Shown: positions 2,596 through 29,442 of the stretch, one piece after another | Layout: every line of letters starts with the position of its first letter | Position numbering within the stretch: the stretch's first letter is position 1 | Source: Guptibacillus hwajinpoensis | GTDB lineage: Bacteria; Bacillota; Bacilli; Bacillales; Guptibacillaceae | Direction of reading: 5' to 3' | Assembly (NCBI RefSeq): GCF_020171785.1 | Contig: NZ_JAIVAE010000009.1 | Span: 124,001-188,000, forward strand | Length of the DNA stretch: 64,000 bases | The notes under the pieces: model-generated | Database searches by the model: none | Seen by the model: the letters and a program-made list of their open reading frames with translations, nothing else | Told to the model about the DNA's origin: nothing | Made by a program: the position numbers and the translations under genes

Positions 2596-3786
2596 TTACA
2601 TAAACATTCCAACAAATATAGCTGTGATAAATGAGGCAAGAGTTCCGCCAATGATCGCTTTTAATCCAAGCTTTGATACTTGTGAACGCTTTGAAGGTTC
2701 AAGTGAGCCTAGCCCAATAATTAATTGACCAATGGATGAGAAGTTGGCAAAGTTACATAGCGCTACAGAAAGAATGGCGACTGTTTTATCAGAGAGCTGA
2801 TCTTGAATTGCCGTTAAATTTTGAAAGGCAACAAATTCATTAATCGACATTTTTGTGCCGATAATGGAGGCAGCGCGAAAGGCTTCATCAGCTGGAATAC
2901 CGACAAGTAGTGAGAATGGATAGAAAATATAACCTAATATAGTGCTAAGGTCTGTTCCTACTACACCTAACATGCCGTTAACTACAGCCAGGATACTTAT
3001 AAAAGCGATCAGAAGGCCACCGATATTAAGGGCAAGCATGACGCCACTTACCGTACCTTCAGCAATCGCTTCAAAAACGTTTGCGTGTTCAGATCTTTTC
3101 ATTTTAACTTTATCGTTCGTTTGTGATACTTCAGTCTCAGGTTCCATCACTTTAGAGATAACAAGCGAGACGAAAGGAACACTAAAGACGGAGATTAATA
3201 AATATTTTAGCTCAATTCCCATAAGCGAATAGCCGACGAGAATGGCTCCACTTGCAGATGCTGTACCACCTACCATGATGGCAAAGATTTCTGATCTCGT
3301 AAGCATCTTCAAATAAGGTTTTACAAGTAAAGGTGCTTCTGCTAGGCCTAGAAACGAATTTCCGACAGCGTTGAACGTTTCAACTTTTGTTGTACCCATT
3401 AATTTACCAATTGTTACACCAATAACTTGAACAATTAAAGGAATGATGCGCATATAATAAAGGGCTGATACTAGAGCTGAAATGAAGATAATGACGGCGA
3501 GGACATTGATCGCAAAAACAAACGTTAAATCTGTTTGTTCATATAATCCTCCAAACACAAATTGAATCCCTTCGTTACTATAATTGATCACGTTTTGTAC
3601 AGCAGCTGAAGCCTTTTCTAGCATAACTTTCCCAGCATTAACTTTTAATACGAATAGAACGAAAAGACCTTCAATGAGGATACCGACCCCGATCGTTCTC
3701 CACTTTACTGATTTTTTCTTGTTACTCATTAACCATGCAATTGCAAGGACGCCGATAATAGAGAGTAGTCCTGTTAAAATACTCAT
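2596..3786 (-). CDS. nupG: CNT-family (NupG/NupC-type) purine nucleoside transporter
   Basis: A 396-residue polytopic membrane protein of the concentrative nucleoside transporter family, which imports nucleosides with a coupled cation. It shows the CNT hallmarks: an N-terminal membrane segment, the segment ALYYMRIIPLIVQVIG, the core 'NSFLGLAEAPLLVKPYL', and 'FANFSSIGQLIIGLGSLEPS' near the C-terminus. The ATG at 3786 is preferred because an AGGGGGA site sits just upstream and the family begins about here; the reading frame stays open 40 codons further but runs into the riboswitch leader. Purine-nucleoside specificity is inferred from the guanine riboswitch in its leader, as on B. subtilis nupG, and from the neighbouring purine nucleoside hydrolase. 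Pyrimidine transport cannot be excluded. Confidence 0.85.
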   Translation of the reverse strand: MSILTGLLSIIGVLAIAWLMSNKKKSVKWRTIGVGILIEGLFVLFVLKVNAGKVMLEKASAAVQNVINYSNEGIQFVFGGLYEQTDLTFVFAINVLAVIIFISALVSALYYMRIIPLIVQVIGVTIGKLMGTTKVETFNAVGNSFLGLAEAPLLVKPYLKMLTRSEIFAIMVGGTASASGAILVGYSLMGIELKYLLISVFSVPFVSLVISKVMEPETEVSQTNDKVKMKRSEHANVFEAIAEGTVSGVMLALNIGGLLIAFISILAVVNGMLGVVGTDLSTILGYIFYPFSLLVGIPADEAFRAASIIGTKMSINEFVAFQNLTAIQDQLSDKTVAILSVALCNFANFSSIGQLIIGLGSLEPSKRSQVSKLGLKAIIGGTLASFITAIFVGMFM

Positions 3787-3843: not shown

Positions 3844-3874
3844 AAAAAACCCGTCCTTTATAGAAAAGTCCGAG
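3844..3874 (-). terminator. terminator of the nupG guanine riboswitch expression platform
   Basis: On the minus strand, downstream of the aptamer and about 60 bases before the nupG start, CTCGGACTTT and AAAGGACGGG form a stem with two central mismatches, followed by GTTTTTT. This is the expected position for ligand-promoted transcription termination, giving repression by guanine or hypoxanthine. The matching antiterminator was not worked out. Confidence 0.6.
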
Positions 3875-3938
3875 TTTACAGGAAGAAGTTCGGCACGAAA
3901 AAACAAAACATACTTGTCTAATCGACGATGCCATACTT

Positions 3939-4010
3939 TCCCTATAGTCCAGCAATTCTCGGTCGCTGGGTAGATACTCTTTGGACCCTATTTCCAAAAT
4001 TATATAGAGA
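3939..4010 (-). promoter_or_regulatory. guanine riboswitch aptamer (purine riboswitch) in the nupG leader
   Basis: Read on the minus strand, TCTCTATA (4010-4003) pairs with TATAGGGA (3946-3939) as P1. P2 is TTTGGA/TCCAAA closing a 7-base loop AATAGGG. J2/3 contains TATCTACC. P3 is CAGCGA/TTGCTG closing CCGAGAA. These match the xpt-type purine aptamer, including the GG and CC loop bases that form the kissing interaction. J3/1 reads GACTATA; the C at the specificity position (C74 in xpt) predicts guanine/hypoxanthine rather than adenine. A weak promoter (TTGCTA, 17-base spacer, TAGATT) lies upstream on the same strand. Confidence 0.9.
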
Positions 4011-4133
4011 TAAATGTGAAGTTGTATTCATCAATCTATCAGAAGATTTCATAGGTAGCAAGACCTATTAGTAAAGTAACAATGTTTTGAAAATTCCAGT
4101 ACTATTTGTAAGCGTTCGACAAAATATTACATG

Positions 4134-4162
4134 TTGCTTCCTTATTCGCGCTCTGTTAGAGT
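4134..4162 (+). promoter_or_regulatory. possible sigma-A promoter for the nucleoside hydrolase transcript
   Basis: TTGCTT, a 17-base spacer and TAGAGT lie 23 bases before the plus-strand aptamer, the right place to start a transcript that includes it. Both hexamers are weak matches. An inverted CGAAC core at about 4113-4118 could be half a PurR box, but the flanking bases fit poorly. Confidence 0.35.
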
Positions 4163-4184
4163 ACAAAGTGATTTAAAAATGGAA

Positions 4185-4251
4185 ACTCATATATGTCGGG
4201 AATTGGCCTGCACGTTTCTACCCTGTTACCTGAAATAATAGGACTATGAGT
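4185..4251 (+). promoter_or_regulatory. second guanine riboswitch aptamer, in the nucleoside hydrolase leader
   Basis: P1 is ACTCATA (4185-4191) paired with TATGAGT (4245-4251), seven perfect pairs. P2 is TGTCGG/CCTGCA with one mismatch around loop GAATTGG, close to the canonical GATATGG. J2/3 is GTTTCTACC, identical to the consensus. P3 is CTGTTA/TAATAG around CCTGAAA. J3/1 is GACTATGAG, with the C that selects guanine. The 75 bases from P1 to the start codon have no T-run, so control is probably translational; 4214-4222 can instead pair with 4278-4286, and 4222-4230 with 4310-4317 next to the ribosome site. Confidence 0.85.
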
Positions 4252-4326
4252 AAATGAATTTTCATAAAACGGCGTTTGGTAGAGACGGTAGTAAAGGACA
4301 TGAGAGTTTGGTACAGGAGGATATAA

Positions 4327-5301
4327 ATGGAGAAAACAAAGGTGTACTTTAATCATGACGGTGGCGTGGATGACTTAGCATCACTCTTTTTATTGCTGAA
4401 CATGGATGAGGTTGAACTTGTAGGCGTTTCAGTTATTCCAGCTGATTGCTATTTAGAACCGGCTGTTTCAGCGAGCAGAAAAATCATTGATCGCTTTGGA
4501 AAAGGGATTGATTTAAATGTATCGGCTTCAAATTCAAGAGGGGTTAATCCGTTTCCTAAAGATTGGCGCATGCATGCTTTCTACGTTGACGCACTACCGA
4601 TTCTTAATGAATCAAATCAAGTGAATACGCCATTGTCAGAAAGACCAGCCCATCTGCATTTGATTGATGTACTTGAGAGCAGTTTAGAACCGATAACGCT
4701 TCTTTTTACTGGTCCTTTAACTGATCTTGCTAGAGCGTTAGAAGTAGCACCAGCGATTGAACAAAAAATTGAAAAGTTAGTGTGGATGGGTGGCACATTT
4801 TTAGAAACAGGAAATGTCGAAGAACCTGAGCACGATGGGACGGCAGAGTGGAATGCGTTCTGGGATCCAGAAGCGGTTGCGACTGTCTTTGATACGTCAA
4901 TTACGATTGAAATGGTGGCGCTTGAAAGTACAAATCAGGTTCCATTAACAAATGATATTAGAAATATGTGGGCAGCTCAGCGAAAAGAAATTGGGGTCGA
5001 TTTCATCGGGCAATGTTATGCGATGTGCCCGCCTCTTGTACATGTTGAAACCAATTCGACATACTACTTATGGGACGTGCTTACAACTGTTTCTGTCACA
5101 CCTCAGTCATTCATTCACTCGAGAAAAGTAAACTGTCGTGTTGAAAAGGACGGCGTAAGCCAGGGGAGAACGGTGCTGGATAAAACAGGCCGTGAAGTTA
5201 TCGTTGTCGACGATGTAGATCGTGATCTTTTCTTTCAATATTTTACTTCTGTTATGCTTCTAGCCGAGGATGGGTTAGAAGCACCACAACTCTATTTGTA
5301 A
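4327..5301 (+). CDS. purine-specific (IAG-type) nucleoside hydrolase
   Basis: A 324-residue member of the IU-NH/IAG-NH superfamily, which cleaves the N-glycosidic bond of ribonucleosides to base plus ribose at a calcium-bound aspartate cluster. Motifs follow the purine-specific trypanosomal IAG enzymes rather than the IU type: NHDGGVDD at 9-16, NPFPKDWR, DGTAEWNAFWDPEA, STNQVPL and YLWDVLTT, where W249 precedes the calcium-ligand D250 as the base-stacking tryptophan does in IAG hydrolases. The first Asp of the DxDxGxDD signature is Asn9, while D11, D15 and D16 are kept. ATG at 4327 follows AGGAGG. It lies divergent from the nucleoside transporter and behind its own guanine aptamer, suggesting purine nucleoside salvage. 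Substrate choice is inferred. Confidence 0.85.
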   Translation: MEKTKVYFNHDGGVDDLASLFLLLNMDEVELVGVSVIPADCYLEPAVSASRKIIDRFGKGIDLNVSASNSRGVNPFPKDWRMHAFYVDALPILNESNQVNTPLSERPAHLHLIDVLESSLEPITLLFTGPLTDLARALEVAPAIEQKIEKLVWMGGTFLETGNVEEPEHDGTAEWNAFWDPEAVATVFDTSITIEMVALESTNQVPLTNDIRNMWAAQRKEIGVDFIGQCYAMCPPLVHVETNSTYYLWDVLTTVSVTPQSFIHSRKVNCRVEKDGVSQGRTVLDKTGREVIVVDDVDRDLFFQYFTSVMLLAEDGLEAPQLYL

Positions 5302-29189: not shown

Positions 29190-29226
29190 GAGTGAAATTT
29201 AATAGTTCCACACTTCGAAAGTTGAA

Positions 29227-29412
29227 GTGATGGTAGAGGCGCAAAAACCATTAGTAAGCTTACGGGAGAGTGTTAAGACTCGTTGATCGTAGTTGAAAGG
29301 GGAATTTGCCGAAGTGGAAAGGCGCTTATCCGTCTGAAACTGGATCTGTATTGAATAAATGCAGAGCTGTCATCCAATACCTACCCGGGAATTGGATGGA
29401 GAACTATCTCAC
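29227..29412 (+). promoter_or_regulatory. lysine riboswitch (L box)
   Basis: The leader carries the conserved L-box blocks in order: AGAGGCGC, TTAGTAAG, GGGGAATTTGCCGAAG, a GAGCTGTCATCC segment and TGGAGAACTATCTC, with P1 formed by GTGATGGTAG and CTATCTCAC. Lysine binding should favour the terminator that follows, lowering aspartokinase II synthesis. This is the known control of B. subtilis lysC. Confidence 0.95.
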
Positions 29413-29442
29413 AAAGGGACGTTTTCTTGGATTTGTTATGAA

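Follow-up and report, generated by a model that had tools for sequence, protein, structure and literature searches.

Divergent guanine-type purine aptamers before a nucleoside transporter gene and a nucleoside hydrolase gene in Guptibacillus hwajinpoensis

The stretch of DNA analysed here, called the window throughout, comprises 64,000 nt of Guptibacillus hwajinpoensis (GCF_020171785.1, contig NZ_JAIVAE010000009.1, positions 124,001-188,000 of the forward strand). A transporter gene and a nucleoside hydrolase gene stand back to back in it and are read divergently, and each of them has a purine aptamer of its own in the intergenic region that they share (Table 1). The preliminary description of this DNA had the aptamers leading to a nucleoside importer on the minus strand and to a nucleoside hydrolase on the plus strand, and the Pfam assignments agree with both names. 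The transporter carries the domains Nucleos_tra2_N, Nucleos_tra2_C and Gate (PF07662/PF01773/PF07670), and it scores 392 bits against the NupC/NupG model TIGR00804 of NCBIfam, which is below the cut-off of 442.

In a PDB sequence search, the best match of the hydrolase was 2c40 (6.4e-136), an entry that carries only the name 'inosine-uridine preferring family protein'. With the same query, IAG hydrolases were found from 4.4e-39, compared with 1.3e-16 for the best IU-type hydrolase, and among enzymes of named specificity the hydrolase is thus nearest in sequence to the purine-specific (IAG) group. IAG nucleoside hydrolases are purine-specific enzymes of trypanosome origin, of which the protein described here is, by this likeness, only a distant relative. 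Since it is far closer to them than to the IU-type enzymes, a purine specificity of the hydrolase is likely.

Table 1. Features of the divergent locus (positions are those of the window)
Feature	Position	Strand	Basis or remark
Concentrative nucleoside transporter gene (CNT, NupC/NupG type)	2596-3786, ATG at 3786	minus	Pfam, NCBIfam
Intrinsic terminator of transporter leader	3844-3877	minus	-11.3 kcal/mol, then T run
Candidate antiterminator strand CUUUUCUAUA in terminator	3859-3868	minus	complementary to P1 3' strand
Second candidate competing strand	3877-3888	minus	pairs with P1 3' strand in ligand-free minimum-energy fold
P1 3' strand, common to aptamer and competing helices	3936-3946	minus	folding
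Purine aptamer, transporter leader, guanine type	core 3939-4010, Rfam match 3925-4027	minus	RF00167
Possible hydrolase promoter, TTGCTT-17 bases-TAGAGT	4134-4162	plus	read in sequence
Purine aptamer, hydrolase leader, guanine type	core 4185-4251, Rfam match 4167-4266	plus	RF00167
Anti-aptamer strand GGUAGAGACGGUAG	4278-4291	plus	complementary to 4208-4222 (P2 3' side and J2/3), one bulge
Anti-aptamer strand GACAUGAGAGU	4297-4307	plus	complementary to P1 5' strand and J1/2
Ribosome-binding site AGGAGG of hydrolase	4315-4320	plus	read in sequence
Nucleoside hydrolase gene	4327-5301	plus	IU_nuc_hydro PF01156, 166 bits

The whole window was scanned against all Rfam families by cmscan, and RF00167, whose gathering score is 37, was matched at 73.7 bits (E 3.5e-11) on the minus strand and at 68.1 bits (E 7.9e-10) on the plus strand, with no third purine match in the window. 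This is the covariance search of both strands that the preliminary description had proposed, and its claim of a complete aptamer on each strand is borne out: both cores lie inside their matches, both matches exceed the gathering score, and P1, P2, P3, J2/3 and J3/1 are all present in the two alignments. Its reading of a guanine-selecting C in J3/1 holds as well, as this joining region is GACUAU in each, with C at the ligand-pairing position. C or U at that position is the rule by which guanine and adenine selection are told apart (PMC11477304, in the part of the paper available). The same scan also found a lysine riboswitch elsewhere in the window (29226-29414, plus strand, 102.3 bits).

Both aptamers are thus real, conserved and of the known guanine kind. 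They share with the guanine riboswitch (guanine-I, RF00167) the three-way junction, the GG/CC letters in L2 and L3 through which the two loops would make contact, the pocket letters of J2/3 and J3/1 and the guanine-type C. J2/3 of the plus aptamer is GUUUCUACC, exactly the consensus, and that of the minus aptamer is GUAUCUACC, which differs at a position variable within the genus, where 8 of the 13 full-length copies of the transporter aptamer have GUUUCUACC. In contrast to guanine-I, where L2 counts seven bases, the plus aptamer has an L2 of only six (AAUUGG), one C of its P2 is unpaired, and its leader lacks an intrinsic terminator. The UAU in its J1/2 recurs in two other aptamers of this genome, those of guaA and of the lipoprotein gene.

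The transporter leader has the layout of an OFF switch, in which the aptamer is followed by a separate terminator that does not overlap it. A simple consensus scan did not flag this terminator, the internal loop being the presumable reason. In 12 of the 13 full-length genus copies of the transporter, the terminator reaches -8.6 kcal/mol or better, the remaining copy (G012) having one of only -1.8 kcal/mol. As to the helix that might compete with P1, there are two candidates. One of them lies within the terminator and forms nine pairs with the P1 3' strand (-5.9 kcal/mol); with this helix forced, the whole leader folds at -54.2 kcal/mol, compared with a minimum of -65.0, and this candidate antiterminator, being 10.8 kcal/mol worse, would thus not be favoured at equilibrium. 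The other abuts the terminator and leaves it intact in the predicted ligand-free minimum-energy fold. The total energy of the duplexes between aptamer and leader was not distinguished from that of shuffled transporter leaders (p 0.448).

The Bacillus subtilis gene yxjA, which we take to be nupG, is the known system with which this leader may be compared. There, a guanine-type aptamer lowers expression of a nucleoside transporter, and a central helix competes with P1 and with the terminator (PMC9756952, in the available part of the text). The parts of the minus-strand leader follow one another in the same order, a likeness of order between leaders that are unaligned, and the terminator-excluding helix is only a candidate here. 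Unlike yxjA, the transporter described here stands back to back with a hydrolase that bears its own aptamer. By the mechanism we propose for the transporter, ligand would keep P1 closed, the competing helix with the P1 3' strand would thereby be blocked, and the separate terminator would stop transcription. The aptamer and the terminator are present as described, and from their arrangement we infer the OFF action. The transporter half of the locus is in this respect ordinary.

The genus sample consisted of 14 genomes, the one that holds the window included. The transporter is full length in 13 of them, and the aptamer core is present in all 13. In the remaining one, a remnant of the C-terminal part of the transporter, with a stop, still has a purine aptamer match beside it (G003:C17:630772-631309). 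An ortholog of the hydrolase was found in 11 of the 14 genomes, with the plus aptamer before it in eight, while the other three (G002, G003 and G010, whose hydrolases are 83-84% identical) have a short leader without aptamer. In the possible hydrolase promoter, which a simple consensus scan did not flag, TAGAGTACAAAGT is kept in all 11 orthologs. It needs to be added that a palindrome stands at window 4113-4118, which is CGTTCG in 9 of the 11 orthologs, CGATCG in G003 and CGTACG in G004, and that the divergent promoter regions of the two genes resemble each other (TTGCTnCCT ... TCTGnTAGAnT). The palindrome and the promoter likeness could represent a regulator site in the shared intergenic region.

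In the hydrolase leader, 75 bases separate the aptamer from the start codon, and no terminator-like hairpin was found after the aptamer in any of the eight genus leaders, that of the window included; if the leader is a switch, control would therefore act on translation or on message stability. The predicted free-state minimum-energy fold breaks the aptamer, as CUGCaCGUUUCUACC (4208-4222) pairs with GGUAGAGACGGUAG, and the P1 5' strand together with J1/2 pairs with GACAUGAGAGU. Both of these anti-aptamer strands stand upstream of the ribosome-binding site. Among seven closely related genomes, none of the 14 sites of GGUAGAGACGGUAG and one of the 11 sites of GACAUGAGAGU vary, as do 4 of the 67 sites of the aptamer; taken together, the anti-aptamer strands have 1 variable site in 25, compared with 17 in 26 for the linker at 4252-4277 (Fisher p 3.9e-6). 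When the eighth genome, G004, is included, 7 of 14, 2 of 11 and 7 of 67 sites vary, respectively, and the comparison of strands and linker becomes 9 of 25 against 23 of 26 (p 1.4e-4). G004 has lost GGUAGAGACGGUAG, and it keeps GACAUGCGAG and a shorter complement to J2/3 (GAAACG). As the anti-aptamer strands are conserved while the linker is variable, the alternative pairing predicted for the hydrolase leader looks selected. Against such selection speaks that helix changes in the genus leaders are one-sided, as far as is visible by eye.

Folding energies bear on this leader in several ways, and the results on duplexes and on ensembles also count against selection of the pairing. The duplex energy between aptamer and leader, a measure that proved too blunt, beats that of shuffled leaders only weakly in the eight genus hydrolase leaders (p 0.012-0.256), and in 25 relatives outside the genus p ranges from 0 to 0.51 (0 of 200 shuffles in two of them and 0.02 in one). 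The ligand-free ensemble of the hydrolase leaders is computed to be 6.1-15.1 kcal/mol more stable than the aptamer-forced one, tertiary contacts and ligand being excluded from both. For the eight genus genomes, the energy needed to open the start region (-20 to +15) was computed with either 60 or 15 coding bases folded. With 60, it is 5.5-9.6 kcal/mol in the free state and 5.0-8.7 in the aptamer state, and it is lower in the aptamer state in seven of the eight genomes, by 0.4-1.5 kcal/mol, which leans toward ON. With 15, it is higher in the aptamer state in four genomes (by 0.3-1.6), equal in three and lower by 0.1 in one. As this lean shifts with the length of coding sequence folded, secondary structure does not yield the sign of the hydrolase switch. 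A pairing of the ribosome-binding site with P3, found by hand, was also dropped, its downstream side being kept in just three of the eight genomes (G000, G009 and G007).

To place the hydrolase leader in a wider context, we considered the best 80 of 345 related stretches, a sample of close relatives rather than of nucleoside hydrolases at large; five of these 80 loci have a shorter upstream flank. The nearest named relatives are two Pseudalkalibacillus records and Bacillus sp. RAR_GA_16, with hydrolases 92-93% identical. By Rfam, a purine aptamer stands upstream of the hydrolase, on the sense strand, in 28 of these best 80 of 345 loci (11/18, 4/18, 7/18, 4/18 and 2/8 in the successive batches), three of them within the genus of the window and 25 outside it. 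Model R1 finds the same 28 loci, a count that is partly circular because 7 of the 12 rows of its alignment, A2, are hydrolase aptamers; the Rfam scan is independent of that model. The loci with an aptamer include Sporosarcina, Halobacillus, Psychrobacillus, Lysinibacillus, Lederbergia, Peribacillus and Oceanobacillus, as well as one record titled Paenibacillus.

In all 25 aptamer loci outside the genus, the aptamer is followed by a terminator, of -7.4 to -21.7 kcal/mol. Among hydrolase leaders without aptamer, where the stretch considered is a different one (250 bases upstream of the gene), 16 of 50 reach -7 or better, and among shuffled leaders 5 of 100 do. GGUAG, which is complementary to J2/3 CUACC, the same idea as that of GGUAGAGACG in the window, forms part of the terminator in 18 of the 25, while in the five Halobacillus leaders it is an arm of the terminator that, by eye, looks complementary to the P1 3' strand instead. 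Downstream of the hydrolase, and on its strand, 10 of the 25 aptamer loci outside the genus have a transporter belonging to the same family, as do 15 of 50 loci without aptamer; the pair of hydrolase and transporter is therefore common and not tied to the aptamer. The preliminary description had proposed a joint role of the two genes in purine nucleoside salvage. The IAG-like hydrolase and the downstream transporters speak for this indirectly, whereas the part of the idea that ties it to the aptamers was weakened, the pair occurring without them as well.

Several further loci among these relatives deserve mention in their own right. In Heyndrickxia sporothermodurans, a purine aptamer belongs to a divergent transporter, a distant (28%) member of the same family, and the adjoining hydrolase has none (L109:3192-3298, minus). 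Two Oceanobacillus hydrolase leaders (L094:3212-3286 and L045:3187-3264) have weak aptamers, scoring about 42-44 bits, in which both the joining regions and the loops are altered; these may represent decay or a specificity variant such as 2'-dG-III. In a Sporosarcina record, a purine aptamer (L046:7787-7863) reads GAUUAC, and the U with which its ligand would pair makes it, by letter, one of the adenine type. On one Lederbergia citrea contig the hydrolase occurs twice (L048 and L053), at a distance of about 5 kb, and only one copy has an aptamer directly upstream.

A hydrolase tree was built from 91 rows, 86 of them different, by a quick method and with a midpoint root. On this tree the distribution of the aptamer requires seven changes, of which well-supported branches force at least six, and these changes may be gains, losses or both. 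The platforms differ, with GGUAG terminators, the Halobacillus terminators and none in the genus of the window, which suggests more than one gain of the hydrolase aptamer. Hydrolases of the genus branch beside sequences of the B. licheniformis and B. pumilus types, which are without aptamers (support 94), and the tree gives no sign that a terminator once existed in the genus leader.

Scoring of 150 of 371 first-look candidates gave at least nine RF00167 matches in the genome from which the window is taken, and all nine aptamers found have C in J3/1. Apart from the two described here, they stand before genes that we read, from the translated downstream frames and not from database results, as two NCS2-type permeases, xpt with a permease, guaA, purE, an adenine deaminase and a nucleosidase-like lipoprotein. 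The predicted lipoprotein, which resembles a nucleosidase or phosphorylase, follows a guanine-type aptamer (L006:1501-1603), and to judge from its translation it perhaps adds extracellular nucleoside cleavage to the same regulon. The plus aptamer is 74% identical to the xpt and lipoprotein aptamers and 64% identical to the minus aptamer, which ranks only seventh when the other eight in the genome are ordered by likeness to it.

A related class is known on the same type of gene. The 2'-dG-III RNAs, published in 2022 with five representatives, occur only on purine nucleoside hydrolase genes of Firmicutes; all three of their joining regions depart from the guanine consensus, and they are predicted to be ON switches with a terminator (PMC9295807, in the part available). 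The plus aptamer shares with them, as far as that text describes the class, the purine-aptamer scaffold and the gene type, which is here IAG-like by likeness. Compared by published description and not letter by letter, the leader described here differs from 2'-dG-III in its guanine-I pocket and in having no terminator. We also considered the plus aptamer as a member of that class and rejected the assignment, since its J2/3 (GUUUCUACC) and J3/1 (GACUAU) are canonical and the definition, in the available text, needs all three joining regions to deviate. The preliminary description knew of no guanine riboswitch described on a nucleoside hydrolase gene, and this calls for correction: a relative has been published, although that class, as its available description goes, deviates in all three joining regions, and the plus aptamer does not. 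A canonical guanine aptamer before a nucleoside hydrolase was not found in our literature search, figures, supplements and most subscription papers aside, and in the available part of PMC3766115, iunH appears under preQ1 riboswitches and not under purine riboswitches. The hydrolase half of the locus thus extends the guanine regulon to a gene type known, in the literature searched, only for a variant class.

To judge from sequence and folding models, it seems on balance probable that both leaders are ordinary guanine-I riboswitches that sense guanine or hypoxanthine and hold down nucleoside uptake and cleavage when these bases are plentiful. On the hydrolase side, the two downstream strands, whose pairing is predicted and conserved, would occupy J1/2, J2/3 and P1 of the aptamer when ligand is absent, and the aptamer would persist when ligand is present. 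The terminator-bearing leaders of the same gene in relatives weakly support, by analogy, OFF as the direction of the hydrolase switch too. Against this reading of both leaders count the greater computed stability of the ligand-free hydrolase ensembles, the three genus orthologs without aptamer and the ligand-free fold of the transporter leader, in which the terminator persists. That the plus match might be due to chance, or be a relic inverted copy of the transporter aptamer, is brought to mind by the two aptamers lying head to head within about 250 bases. However, we ruled out chance and an inverted duplication of the neighbour on the E-values of the two matches (7.9e-10 and 3.5e-11), the mere 64% identity of the two aptamers, with the minus one so low among the others of the genome, and the conservation of the plus aptamer in eight genomes, and we regard this explanation as having practically no chance of being right.

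Two other explanations concern what the hydrolase aptamer does. On one hand, it may be a remnant, still able to bind guanine perhaps, with an inert expression platform and a constitutively expressed hydrolase. The lack of a terminator in all eight genus leaders, set against its presence in all 25 aptamer-bearing leaders elsewhere, is in line with this idea, as are the three sister genomes with a short leader and no aptamer, and start-site accessibility does not clearly change between the two states. We nevertheless find a remnant unlikely, as the aptamer and the anti-aptamer strands persist on either side of a freely changing linker, and as the tree gives no hint of a terminator having ever stood there. 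On the other hand, the hydrolase riboswitch could be an ON switch, perhaps for guanine nucleosides (guanosine or 2'-deoxyguanosine), so that a substrate would induce its own destroyer while guanine shuts the transporter. This would fit the 2'-dG-III RNAs, for which no gene type other than purine nucleoside hydrolases is reported and ON is the predicted direction (PMC9295807, in the part available). It would also fit the predicted folds, in which the stretch upstream of the ribosome-binding site is locked in the free state and largely released in the aptamer state, and in which, with 60 coding bases, opening of the start region costs slightly less in the aptamer state in seven of eight genomes. 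With 15 coding bases, however, this lean is reversed or absent; the leaders of relatives, an aptamer and then a separate terminator, have the OFF layout; and whereas 2'-dG-III, as described in the available text, deviates in three joining regions, J2/3 and J3/1 are canonical here and J1/2 UAU recurs before guaA and the lipoprotein gene. An ON switch is thus, in our opinion, quite unlikely. We hold as very doubtful the fuller proposal that the hydrolase leader is a terminator-less purine riboswitch, with a guanine-type aptamer of short L2, that acts in a sense opposite to that of its divergent neighbour and possibly reads nucleosides. If that opposite-sense reading were true, a single intergenic region would contain both an OFF switch for import and an ON switch for breakdown.

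As for the reading that we prefer, with two ordinary guanine-I riboswitches, its bearing goes beyond this locus. In a third of the close relatives considered (28 of the best 80 of 345), an IAG-like hydrolase gene is preceded by a guanine-type aptamer, and this adds a gene type to the guanine regulon. That such aptamers occur before these hydrolases, having been gained or lost several times, points to purine nucleosides as the substrates of the enzymes. Nature here allows terminator-based guanine switches to be compared with terminator-less ones within one gene family, and guanine-I with 2'-dG-III sensors on one kind of gene.
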